Below, in pieces: positions 1,596-6,992 of a DNA stretch of 38,128 bases. Below the pieces are notes generated by a model that searched no databases, was not told the DNA's origin, and worked only from the letters and a program-made list of their open reading frames with translations. The first letter of the stretch is position 1. Each line of letters begins with the position of its first letter. Source of the stretch: Nitrospirota bacterium (GTDB taxonomy: Bacteria; Nitrospirota; Nitrospiria; Nitrospirales; Nitrospiraceae); assembly GCA_020027965.1 (NCBI GenBank), contig JAHRHE010000019.1, positions 1 through 38,128 on the forward strand, written 5' to 3'. A program made the translations under genes and the position numbers.

Positions 1596-3299
1596 TCAGC
1601 GCACAGCTCCCCGCTGCGACGCCACGGGTTCCGCGGAGGCGGCACGCTCAGCATCCCGTGCGTGCCGCCGACGCATGACTTCCGGCAGCATCCGGTCAAG
1701 AGCGTCACTGACCGGAGCCAACGTCTTAGGATGAAGCGCTGAGACACCTAATGCCGCATAGCGACGGCACAACGACTCTGCCTCACCCGCCGGCAAACGG
1801 TCGCACTTGTTGAACACGAGGAGGCGGGGAATCTGCGCCAGACCAAGCTCGGACAGGATGGTCTCGACGGCCTCCAGGTGACCCTGAGGATCCCGTGCGC
1901 TGGCATCCACCAGATGGAGCAGGATATCGGCATCCCGCAACTCTTCTAGCGTCGTGCGAAAGGCGCCCATCAGATCCTTCGGGAGATCGCGCATGAACCC
2001 GACCGTGTCCGTGATGATCACCTCTCGGTCGCGTGGAAAACGCAGCCTCCGGCTCGAAGTATCGAGGGTTTCAAATGGTCGATCCTGGGAGGGCACTTGG
2101 CTGTCCGTGAGCGCGTTCAAGAGCGTCGACTTACCGGCATTCGTATACCCGACGATCGAGACGATGGGGATCAACTTGCGGAACCGGCGGGCCCGGCGCT
2201 GGTCGCGATGACGCTCGAAGGCCGCCAGCTCGCGCTCGAGGTGGGCAAGACGATCGCGAACGCGCCGACGATCGGTTTCCAGCTTCGTCTCGCCGGGCCC
2301 TCTTCCCCCGATCCCGCCGCCCAACCGCGAGAGCGCGGTGCTCTTCCCGGAAAGGCGTGGCAGCAGGTACCGAAGCTGCGCCAGTTCAACCTGAATTTTT
2401 CCCTCTCGGCTGTGCGCCCGCCTGGCGAAAATGTCCAGAATGACCTGGGTCCGATCAACGACCTTCATCTCTGTCACTCCGGCGATCGCCCTGACCTGTG
2501 CCGGCGTCAGGTCTTGGTCGAAGATCAGGAGATTGGCGCCCCTGTGCAGGGCACGAATCACTACCTCCTTGAGCTTTCCGCTGCCCAGGACATACTTAGG
2601 ATGGATGTCCTGCGCACGCTGAACGACGGTCTCCAAAACGGTAATCCCATCCGAGCGGACGAGCTCAGCCAACTCCTCCAGTCTCTCCTGCTGTTCGAGC
2701 CGGCTTCGTTTCGAGGCGCTGACGAGGATCGCGGATTCCTCTCCGCCCTTCACCTCATGCCCGGGAGCGGCGCGTGCCGCCTCGGCTTCCAGCGCCTCCA
2801 CGAACTTATCGCATTCCAGATGAAAGGCATGAAATGGTCTTGGCTTCCAGACTTCACAAATCCGGCCTTGCGGGTTGGGGGGGAGGAGATGCGCCAGGTA
2901 CACCTCTGCGGGGAGCCCTTCAGCGCCGACCCCGATCGCCACCATCAGATCCAGTCGCAGCAGCGCCAAATCAGACAGATCATCTTGCGTCAACGGCTCG
3001 TTACGAAGGTGAGTATGGACGAGCCGGACCCCGCGCAGGGACCGCCGACCGAGACGGTGTTGCGAGAGGTCATTCAGGATGAGTTCCCGGCTGTCCCCGA
3101 CGATCACCTGGTCGATCGTTCCGCGCCTGGTTAGGAGGAGCCCGATTTGGCAGCGGATTTCGTGGGAGAGTTCTGTGCAGGCTCTGGCCAGCTCCGGCGT
3201 GACGACCTTATCGACGGGAACTCGACGACGATAGAGATGCTCCAGTCGCAACAGTTGGCTGGCTTTGAGGCCATGGACATGTCCGTGGACCGTAGGAAT
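1596..3299 (-). CDS. hflX: GTPase HflX, probable ATT start
   Basis: HflX is a ribosome-associated GTPase that splits or rescues stalled ribosomes under stress. Visible are the HflX N-terminal domain, the glycine-rich segment GGGIGGRGPGETKLE, and a G domain with G1 GYTNAGKST (about residue 384), G3 DTVGF and G4 NKCD. The first ATG/GTG/TTG-type start in frame is a TTG at 3251, but homology runs upstream: codons 3299-3252 encode a segment containing HGLKASQLL that precedes RLEHLYRRRVP, as in long HflX proteins. The frame meets a stop (TGA) just upstream, and the only plausible initiator is ATT at 3299-3297, eight bases after a GAGGAG Shine-Dalgarno. This gives 567 residues. The gene follows tsaD by 23 bp and precedes nth by 14 bp. 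Function is secure; the ATT start is a well-supported inference. Confidence 0.93.
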   Translation of the reverse strand: MPTVHGHVHGLKASQLLRLEHLYRRRVPVDKVVTPELARACTELSHEIRCQIGLLLTRRGTIDQVIVGDSRELILNDLSQHRLGRRSLRGVRLVHTHLRNEPLTQDDLSDLALLRLDLMVAIGVGAEGLPAEVYLAHLLPPNPQGRICEVWKPRPFHAFHLECDKFVEALEAEAARAAPGHEVKGGEESAILVSASKRSRLEQQERLEELAELVRSDGITVLETVVQRAQDIHPKYVLGSGKLKEVVIRALHRGANLLIFDQDLTPAQVRAIAGVTEMKVVDRTQVILDIFARRAHSREGKIQVELAQLRYLLPRLSGKSTALSRLGGGIGGRGPGETKLETDRRRVRDRLAHLERELAAFERHRDQRRARRFRKLIPIVSIVGYTNAGKSTLLNALTDSQVPSQDRPFETLDTSSRRLRFPRDREVIITDTVGFMRDLPKDLMGAFRTTLEELRDADILLHLVDASARDPQGHLEAVETILSELGLAQIPRLLVFNKCDRLPAGEAESLCRRYAALGVSALHPKTLAPVSDALDRMLPEVMRRRHARDAERAASAEPVASQRGAVR

Positions 3300-3322
3300 G
3301 GTCTGCGCTCCTCAGTTCGCGT

Positions 3323-4459
3323 TCAGGCGTGGGGACGACTGCGATGGGCTTTCCGACCAGCAGTGACGGCGACCCGTCCGGGGCGTGACGATTCGGGCCT
3401 CGGGCCGCAGGCCAGCTCATCCAACCGGACAGCCATGTGGGTCTCCGGCAGTGTCCATTCCGCATCGGCCTCCATGTCCCATGCATTGAACCGGCCCTTC
3501 GCGTAGGCCCAGTGCCCCGCCTTGGCGATCATGACTGCATTGTCGGTGCAGTAGGCGGCGCGAGGAAGTGAGAGACGGACTCCCGTGGCCCTCGCGCGCT
3601 CGGCAAGCAGTGCCCGGAGCCTCGTGTTGGCTGAGACCCCTCCGACCACTGCCAAGGCATCAACGTGGAAGCGCCGGACAGCCTCAAAGCCCTTGTCCAC
3701 CAGGACTTCAACGATCGCCTCCTGAAATCCGGCCGCGATATCGCTCACCGCCCTGGGCTTCCCAGACCGGTCCACATCACGCAGGTAGTACAACAGGGCG
3801 GTCTTGATCCCGCTGAAGCTGAAATCCAGGTTGCTCCGCATGCGGTAGGGACGCGGAAAGCGGATGGCAGCCTTATTCCCGATGCGGGCCATCCGGTCAA
3901 TCGCCGGCCCGCCTGGGTAGCCGAGGGCCAGCATCTTGGCCGCTTTATCAAAGGCCTCACCGGCCGCGTCATCCAGCGTTCGACCGATGAGTCGGTAGCT
4001 TCCGGGTGACTCGACCAGAAACAGGTGTGTATGGCCCCCCGAGACCACGAGGACGATGCAGGGTGTGGGAAAGTCGGGCTCATCGATCCAGGCGGATGCC
4101 AAATGCCCTTCCAGGTGATTCACACCGATCAGGGGAATCTTCAGGGCGTAAGCCAGCGCCTTGCTGAAACAGACGCCGACCAGCAGGGCCCCGGCCAGCC
4201 CAGGCCCACGAGTGACGGCCACCGCACTCAAGCTTGACCAGGGAAGGCCGGCCTGCTGCATGGCGTCTGCCACGATACTCTCCACCGTCTCGATGTGCCG
4301 GCGCGAGGCCAGTTCCGGAACCACGCCGCCGTACTTGCCATGCACATCATGCTGCGAAGAGAGCACACTCGAGGCCACACGCCCGTCGCTGTCGACGACC
4401 GCAGCAGCGGTCTCGTCGCAGGAGGTCTCGATTCCCAGGATCAGGGGTCTGGGGTACAA
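3323..4459 (-). CDS. tsaD: tRNA N6-threonylcarbamoyladenosine transferase TsaD
   Basis: TsaD transfers the threonylcarbamoyl group to A37 of ANN-decoding tRNAs, working with TsaB, TsaC and TsaE. The protein begins LGIETSCDETAAA and contains the metal-binding HLEGH, the nucleotide-binding VVSGGHTHL, then GGVSANTRL and CTDNAVMIA, all diagnostic. It starts at a TTG (4459); a GAGG stretch about nine bases upstream could serve as ribosome binding site. At 378 residues it is some 35 longer than usual, because of an Arg/Pro/Ser-rich tail after the last conserved block (ACGPRPESSRP onward). That tail may be disordered and has no recognisable domain. It sits between clpC (103 bp upstream) and hflX (23 bp downstream) in the same direction, consistent with one transcript. 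Confidence 0.95.
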   Translation of the reverse strand: MYPRPLILGIETSCDETAAAVVDSDGRVASSVLSSQHDVHGKYGGVVPELASRRHIETVESIVADAMQQAGLPWSSLSAVAVTRGPGLAGALLVGVCFSKALAYALKIPLIGVNHLEGHLASAWIDEPDFPTPCIVLVVSGGHTHLFLVESPGSYRLIGRTLDDAAGEAFDKAAKMLALGYPGGPAIDRMARIGNKAAIRFPRPYRMRSNLDFSFSGIKTALLYYLRDVDRSGKPRAVSDIAAGFQEAIVEVLVDKGFEAVRRFHVDALAVVGGVSANTRLRALLAERARATGVRLSLPRAAYCTDNAVMIAKAGHWAYAKGRFNAWDMEADAEWTLPETHMAVRLDELACGPRPESSRPGRVAVTAGRKAHRSRPHA

Positions 4460-4562: not shown

Positions 4563-6992
4563 TCAAACTCCCGCCAGGGCCTCTTCTTCCACAAACAAGG
4601 GGGAGTCGTCCCGCAGCACCACTTTGATCTTCCGGGCATCTTTGAAGCGGCCCTTGATCAACTCTTCCGAAAGTGGGTCGCCGAGGTTCTTCTGGATGGT
4701 TCGCCGCATCGGGCGGGCTCCGTACAGCGGCTGATACCCTTCCTTGATCAGCCACTGCTTCACGTCTTCGCCCACCTCCAGTTGAACACCCCGCTCCACC
4801 AACCGGCCATTCAATTCCTTGATCAGGATGTCCAGGATCCCGCAGAGGTGCTCTCTTTCAAGCTGGTGGAACACCACCACTTCGTCGATGCGATTCAAGA
4901 ATTCCGGGCTGAATGCCCGGCGCAACTCACCGAGCACTTCGTCCTTCATCCGTCGATTGGCCTCGGTCTGCTCCGCGCGGTGGAATCCGAGCGAGACGCC
5001 CTTCTGGATCAGCTTGGTTCCCAAATTGGAGGTCATAATCACGACGGTATTCTTGAAATCAACTTTCCGGCCAAGGCTATCGGTCAAGACACCGTCATCC
5101 AGCACCTGGAGCAGCACGTTAAAGATGTCGGGATGGGCCTTCTCAATTTCATCGAACAGCACCACCGAATAAGGCCGGCGACGCACCCTCTCGGTCAACT
5201 GACCACCCTCCTCGTATCCGACGTATCCGGGAGGCGCTCCAAACAGGCGGGAACTGGTAAACTTCTCCTGATACTCGGACATGTCGATGCGAACCAGGGC
5301 ATCCTCGGTGTTGAAGAGAAACTCGGCCAACGCCCGCGCCAGTTCCGTCTTGCCGACTCCGGTGGGTCCCAGGAAAATGAACGACCCGATCGGTTTCTTC
5401 GCCTCCTTGAGGCCGGCGCGGGACCGCCGGATCGCCCGACACACGGCGGAGATCGCCTCTTCCTGACCCACAATTCTCTTGTGGAGAAATTCCTCCATGT
5501 GCAAGAGCTTGCTGGATTCCTCTTCCTCCAGCTTGAATAGCGGAATGCCCGTCATCTTGGAGACCACGTAGGCGACGTCTTCCTTCGTGATGACCGGTTT
5601 GTGTTTTTCCTGGTTCTTCTTCCACTCTCGCTTCGATTCATCGAGGAGTTTTCGCAACCGTTCCTCTTCCTCCCTGAATCGCACCGCTTCTTCGAAGTTC
5701 TGGAGTGAGATGGCCAGCTCTTTCTCACGCGACACTTTTTTGAGCTCCTGCTCAAGGGCCTTGAGCTCTCCGGGCAGCGCGTACGTTTGCAGCTTGGCAC
5801 GTGACCCGGTCTCGTCGATCAGGTCGATGGCCTTGTCTGGCAGGAACCGGTCCGTGATGTACCGGTCGGACAGCTTGACGGATTCAATGATGGCCTCTTC
5901 GGTGATCTCCACCCCGTGGTGATCCTCATACCGATCCCGGAGGCCCTGGATGATCCGGATCGTCTCCTCGATATTCGGTGGCTGGACGTAGATCGGTTGG
6001 AAGCGTCGCTTCAAGGCGCCGTCCTTTTCGATGTGCTTGCGGTATTCATCCAGCGTGGTCGCGCCGATACACTGGATCTCTCCGCGAGAGAGGGCCGGCT
6101 TGAGCATGTTCGACGCGTCGATCGAGCCCTCCGCGGCCCCGGCGCCCACGAGCGTGTGGAGCTCGTCGATGAAGATGATGATGTTCCCCGCCTGGACGAT
6201 CTCCTTCATGACGACTTTCAGGCGTTCTTCGAACTGGCCACGGTACTTCGTGCCGGCCACCAGCGATCCGAGGTCCAACGCAATGACGCGCCGTGACAGG
6301 AGGTTATCTGGAACCTCGGACATCACAATCCGCTGCGCCAGGCCTTCCACGATCGCCGTCTTCCCGACTCCCGATTCGCCGATGAGGACCGGATTATTCT
6401 TGGTCCGGCGACTGAGGATCTGAAGCACGCGCTCGATCTCGTCCATCCGGCCAATGACGGGATCCAGCTGTCCCTCCTGGGCCAACTGGGTCAGATCTCG
6501 ACCGAATTCATCGAGTGCCGGCGTGTTGCTCTTTCGATCCCGTTCCCGAGGGGCGGACTTGCGGAGAAAGGTGACCGTCAATTGTCTGGCCGTGAGCAGA
6601 TTGGCTCCGAGGCTCCGGAGGATCTTTCCGCCGATGCCCTCCTCTTCCCGCAGCAAGCCCAGGAGCAGATGCTCGCTACCGATGTGATTGTGCCCCAGCA
6701 GACGGGCTTCCTCGACCCCGTATTCGATGACTTTCTTGACGCGGGGGCTAAAGGGGATTTCGCCGAAGGTCATGGTGGTACCGCCGCTCGGGAGATTCCG
6801 TTCGATCTCAAGTCGGATCTGCTCAGCGGACAGCCCCATCTTCTTGATGATCATCAGGGCGATTCCGTCTGACTCACGGAGAATGGCCAAGACCAAGTGT
6901 TCCGTCCCCAGGTAGTCATTCTGGTGACGTTCGGCCTCTTCTCGTGCCAGGATGATGATCTTCCGACCCTTATCCGTGAATCGTTCGAACAT
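4563..6992 (-). CDS. clpC: ATP-dependent Clp protease ATPase subunit ClpC
   Basis: ClpC is a AAA+ unfoldase that feeds substrates to ClpP and handles misfolded or regulated proteins. It has two N-terminal Clp-N repeats (about residues 1-145), AAA1 with Walker [10 protein letters not shown] (about 205-213) and Walker [11 protein letters not shown], a middle region with a UVR-like [16 protein letters not shown], and AAA2 with [11 protein letters not shown] and [11 protein letters not shown]. The 809-residue length fits ClpC. The start [10 protein letters not shown] is preceded by AAGGAGG five bases away, which excludes the longer upstream frame. A consensus promoter (7070-7098) lies about 80 bp upstream. 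No ctsR or mcsAB is next to it, unlike in Firmicutes. Confidence 0.97.

Follow-up and report, generated by a model that had tools for sequence, protein, structure and literature searches.

Where does translation of hflX begin when no ATG, GTG or TTG lies between the nearest upstream stop codon and the conserved N terminus of the protein? This question is raised by the hflX gene of a Nitrospirota bacterium, which lies in the 38,128-nt stretch of DNA that we analyzed (the window; contig JAHRHE010000019.1). The gene is on the minus strand, as are all features described below, and encodes a long-form GTPase HflX of 567 amino acids when read from an ATT (gene, 1596–3299; ATT, 3297–3299). The protein scored 429.1 bits against TIGR03156 (cut-off 216.75), a model that begins approximately 190 residues into it, and contains the GTP-bdg_N, GTP-bdg_M and MMR_HSR1 domains (PF13167, PF16360 and PF01926). 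From the upstream stop, the frame reads TGA GGA GCG CAG ACC ATT CCT ACG GTC CAC GGA and continues CAT GTC CAT GGC CTC AAA GCC AGC CAA CTG TTG. The TGA (3312–3314), five codons 5′ of the ATT, overlaps a Shine-Dalgarno (SD) sequence, GAGGAG (3308–3313), which is 8 nt 5′ of the ATT and forms an anti-SD duplex of −8.4 kcal/mol. No ATG, GTG or TTG occurs between the TGA and the ATT, and the first conventional in-frame start is a TTG (3249–3251), 16 codons downstream. The minus strand thus carries exactly the arrangement of ATT, GAGGAG and distant conventional start that the original prediction had described. Codons 2–16 (3252–3296; PTVHGHVHGLKASQL), which contain a conserved GxxxGL motif, are missed when ATG, GTG and TTG are the only starts allowed. 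With its in-frame, well-spaced SD, the ATT is almost certainly the hflX initiator, to be read as fMet. The upstream neighbor, tsaD (3323–4459), ends with a stop codon 23 nt before the ATT and itself appears to start with TTG (4459). An Rfam scan of the window gave no matches.

The original prediction had asked whether relatives keep the ATT. It is present in L006, the nearest named relative (78% identical), and in close relatives an SD is followed by either ATT or ATC; none of these has the ATG or GTG at the same place that would point to an error in our sequence. We extended the comparison to long-form HflX generally; the short form, which is common in Acidobacteriota and in the phylum of G154 (an "Armatimonadetes" genome), was left out. 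A scan of genome contigs gave 571 confirmed hflX loci, and nearly all of the best 80 start with ATT, ATC or ATA, four to five codons before the G of GxxxGL, behind an AGGAG-type SD. HflX was found in 140 of 148 Nitrospirota genomes, from which we took 70 loci besides that of the window (30 ranked best and 40 selected to spread across families). In Desulfobacterota, 136 of 148 genomes matched HflX, the match including the N-terminal part in 112, and 90 loci were taken. Matches in 76 of 80 Acidobacteriota genomes and in all 58 genomes of the G154 phylum yielded 23 and 19 long-form loci, respectively. The phylum of G151 is represented by one genome, and that of G155 is the same as that of G148. 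All 283 loci were located, and removing eight with identical start regions left 275 distinct loci. Start calls were rule-based, the sampling is uneven and non-random, and many of the genomes are draft assemblies. Seven ambiguous starts (L086, L096, L099, L122, L152, L198 and L238) were counted in n and kept outside the class tests.

Across the 275 loci, the start codon was ATC in 102, ATT in 72, ATA in 48, ACG in six, ATG in 22, GTG in nine, TTG in nine and ambiguous in seven. This corresponds to 228 near-cognate starts (222 ATT, ATC or ATA and six ACG) and 40 canonical ones, so the assignment of the window's ATT to the same near-cognate class as that of infC holds for most relatives as well, and the predicted near-cognate start is much broader than originally supposed. 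Non-canonical starts made up 80 of 92 in Nitrospirota, 65 of 85 in the Desulfobacterota sample, 24 of 25 in Acidobacteriota, eight of 19 in the G154 phylum, one of one in Tectomicrobia and 50 of 53 among other named loci, mostly titled Deltaproteobacteria. A further eight Desulfobacterota loci comprised six non-canonical starts, one ATG and one ambiguous start. When the third base of the start was compared with internal Ile codon usage, ATA was in weak excess (48 observed, 35.7 expected, sd 4.9), to which we give no weight. ACG, found in L048, L063, L066, L123, L124 and L285 of the main set and in L402 of the further set, seemingly initiates hflX in three or more separate lineages; to our knowledge, bacterial ACG starts have seldom been described. 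The near-cognate feature is not universal, since the long-form hflX of Fusobacterium has an annotated ATG start, two codons further in. The short-form hflX of E. coli has a TTG start in its annotation, and a match from Acetoanaerobium (Clostridia) proved to be short-form.

Several observations were made alongside these counts. In five loci of the G154 phylum (L293, L294, L296, L299 and L300), hflX starts with GTG, has almost no SD and has a stop codon shortly upstream; this clade swapped a near-cognate codon and a strong SD for GTG and no SD. Several genomes of the window's family (G091:C2, G048:C1, G097:C62, G075:C5 and others) encode a second, N-terminally divergent HflX-like GTPase, whose frames are mostly ~480–530 amino acids and which matches only positions ~64–349 of TIGR03156. 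All three sampled genomes of Nitrospirota family f13 (G006, G016 and G025) gave no HflX match at 1e-90, and infC is present in them.

What sets the codon at this position can be read from its context. Of the 228 near-cognate starts, 92.1% have a correctly spaced SD core; among 6902 internal Ile codons the proportion is 19.2%, and among 908 sites shifted upstream it is 17.4%. When the N terminus is one codon shorter, as in many Desulfobacterales, or two codons longer, as in L269, L270, L272, L273 and L275, the near-cognate codon shifts together with the SD (offsets 4–7). The Thr codon ACG can replace the Ile codon, and in scattered lineages ATG, GTG or TTG occurs at the same place or one to two codons away. 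An upstream stop is visible in 226 non-canonical loci; the interval from it to the start contains no ATG, GTG or TTG in 163 of them, and in six (L089, L110, L149, L207, L209 and L276) the stop is immediately followed by the start, making an upstream start in that frame impossible. As a rough negative control we used der (engA): 23 of 30 loci have ATG or TTG three to five codons before the P-loop motif, two have ATG ten codons before it, four have none within ten codons (N-terminal extension) and in one the motif was not found. The SD placement, the shifts with the SD and the replacement by ACG argue that the hflX start codon is governed by initiation and not by the identity of the residue.

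We weighed three other accounts of the start. One is that translation begins at TTG 3251, the first conventional in-frame start, and that the 16 codons upstream are conserved for another reason. Nine Nitrospirota sequences (L001 and L006–L013) bear on this. Over codons 2–16, mismatches at the three codon positions are 0.23, 0.11 and 0.50, and in-frame codon differences are 166 synonymous to 189 non-synonymous; the corresponding ratios for the other two frames are 29:339 and 24:346. In the 24 nt 5′ of the ATT, the mismatch is 0.57. G6, G10 and L11 are invariant among 18 aligned proteins. The site of the TTG reads TTG, TTG, TTG, GTG, CTC, CTT, ATG, CTG and CTG in these nine, so that four of nine have no start codon there, and the TTG lacks an SD (duplex of −0.1 kcal/mol, against −8.4 for the ATT). 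More generally, the median distance from a non-canonical start to the next in-frame ATG, GTG or TTG is 38 codons, which falls within the conserved domain. The lack of conservation and of an SD at the TTG, together with coding constraint 5′ of it, means that HflX must start upstream, and initiation at the TTG, which the original prediction had named as the outcome that would count against it, is very improbable.

Much the same can be said of the idea that the ATT is an internal Ile codon, with the true start further upstream and reached by stop-codon readthrough, frameshifting or fusion to the upstream gene. The start position is mostly an Ile codon, and some relatives do have an open frame with ATG, GTG or TTG further upstream, but in-frame stops lie close upstream in most loci, the SD is spaced for the ATT codon, and codons for other residues substitute there. 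The upstream gene also varies. tsaD occupies this position in 28 of the 176 loci with more than 700 nt of upstream sequence, all of them Nitrospirota relatives; we therefore rejected coupling to tsaD, which cannot account for the general start pattern, and consider an upstream start hardly credible. A sequencing or assembly error that converted ATG or GTG to ATT is less credible still. The window's genome is indeed a fragmented assembly of 263 contigs, but the start pattern is independent of that assembly: the same SD context, with ATT or ATC, recurs in independent assemblies of the nearest relatives, and no error is needed to explain the ATT.

Initiation at the ATT being the reading we adopt, we examined how such starts have evolved using a FastTree tree of 268 hflX sequences, many represented by the N-terminal part only. 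Parsimony places a non-canonical start at the root, followed by 17 changes of class, ~15 to canonical and two back. About 60 changes are inferred among ATT, ATC and ATA and ~10 to ATG, below the one third expected with equally likely changes at the third position (binomial P = 0.0005, a value that is approximate given unequal mutation rates and parsimony counts). The near-cognate start is thus probably an old feature of long-form (~550 amino acid) HflX that has been retained across the greater part of several phyla. Comparison of the 17 canonical-start clades with their non-canonical sister groups shows the canonical SD to be the weaker one in 16 cases (sign test, P = 0.0003), indicating that codon strength and SD strength compensate for each other; the raw comparison of the two classes gave P = 2.6e-13, a figure not corrected for the tree.

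We also examined infC in the same genomes. In the window's genome, infC (L329; G000:C94, near 5146–5643, minus strand) starts with ATC after AGGAGGTG. Of 50 infC loci from Nitrospirota, 42 start with ATT, ATC or ATA behind an SD; six others (L327, L332, L379, L381, L382 and L384) are unclear or ATG, and in L380 and L383 the motif was not found. In Nitrospirota, infC and hflX therefore share a start design. The infC of the genome that carries L080 (L161) appears to start with ACG. Looking for co-switching of start class between the two genes among Nitrospirota genomes, we found no co-variation. In four genomes (G001, G011, G020 and G029), a canonical start of hflX coexists with ATC in infC, so that a switch in one gene is not matched in the other; in G056 and G113, hflX starts with ATT, and the only nearby start candidate for infC is an ATG, nine codons before the motif and with no SD.

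How might such a start be used? IF3 is described as repressing starts other than ATG, GTG and TTG, with infC autoregulated by this route (PMC5472188), and E. coli HflX is described as splitting 70S ribosomes, IF3 being an anti-association factor that blocks reassociation of 30S subunits (PMC9067457). The codons used by hflX (ATT, ATC, ATA and ACG, with ATG under-represented) are the class needed for IF3 control. As in infC and sigR, the start is other than ATG, GTG or TTG in the window and in most relatives, it is positioned by an SD with no usable canonical start nearby, and it has been retained in evolution, yet 17 clades are canonical. We propose that IF3 would destabilize 30S initiation complexes on the hflX ATT. 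Like infC, hflX would be held low while IF3 exceeds 30S subunits and be derepressed when free IF3 is short. Since HflX splits ribosomes into subunits and IF3 holds the subunits apart, this wiring would match splitting capacity to the supply of IF3. We infer IF3 control and its homeostatic purpose from the start codon, the SD and their conservation, which are read directly from sequence. Given that the start belongs to the IF3-sensitive class, repression by IF3 is a step that we moderately favor. Taken as a whole, we assign a probability of roughly 0.75 to the reading that hflX is translated from an SD-placed ATT, that this is an old feature of long-form HflX and that IF3 repression is the most likely mechanism.

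The main rival to IF3 control accepts the near-cognate start and holds that it merely keeps HflX scarce, with IF3 a fidelity background and not a signal. A strong SD with a weak codon, or a weak SD with a strong codon, would then give the same low, constant level. The weaker SDs of the 16 canonical clades, which look as though output were held constant, are expected equally under this account, and the GTG-start loci L293, L294, L296 and L299 have no SD core at all. As ~17 clades have ATG, GTG or TTG, responsiveness to IF3 appears dispensable there, and selection may act on nothing more than a low expression level. Against this, the pairing of a strong SD with a near-cognate codon has endured across most of several phyla, even though a single substitution to ATG with decay of the SD would give the alternative, and in infC the same design, in the same genomes, is regulatory. 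Scarcity alone is therefore a serious possibility, but one to which we give somewhat less than even odds. Repression by IF3 remains our preferred reading. The chances seem evenly divided as to its furthest extension, in which long-form hflX and infC would form an ancient two-gene regulon of near-cognate starts, the ancestral long-form hflX start being already near-cognate and the availability of IF3 setting both genes.

We know of few bacterial genes whose starts are sensitive to IF3, and infC is the sole broadly conserved one that we could name. If IF3 control is correct, hflX, whose product splits ribosomes at a step adjacent to IF3, would be the second such gene, conserved across several phyla, and regulation would link initiation to recycling through a conserved choice of start codon. 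Many genome annotations are also likely to give the wrong N terminus for HflX and to omit the conserved GxxxGL segment; gene finders restricted to ATG, GTG and TTG would truncate or extend long-form HflX in most members. The claim can be tested directly in culturable members of these phyla.

Among open-access papers, searched by title and the opening of the abstract, we found no report of a non-canonical hflX start. E. coli pcnB is another gene besides infC that starts with ATT; its product, unlike HflX, is a poly(A) polymerase. The closest parallel is infC itself, which starts with ATT in E. coli and ATC in Streptomyces and which, like hflX, is a gene of the translation machinery whose near-cognate start and strong SD are kept across taxa. 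Autoregulation of infC by its own product is experimental (PMC5472188), whereas hflX would be a second target, acted on in trans. Streptomyces sigR, like hflX, is a gene other than infC with a non-canonical start that was misannotated to a nearby canonical codon; it differs in that its start is GTC, its product is a stress sigma factor, and its repression by IF3 was tested by IF3 overexpression and with infC mutants (PMC5472188). Translation-linked control of HflX has also been described for Listeria hflXr, where it operates by leader-peptide transcription attenuation (PMC6310831), and for hflX of Bacillales, where it involves a uORF motif (PMC8632094); in long-form hflX, the link to translation would instead lie in the start codon.
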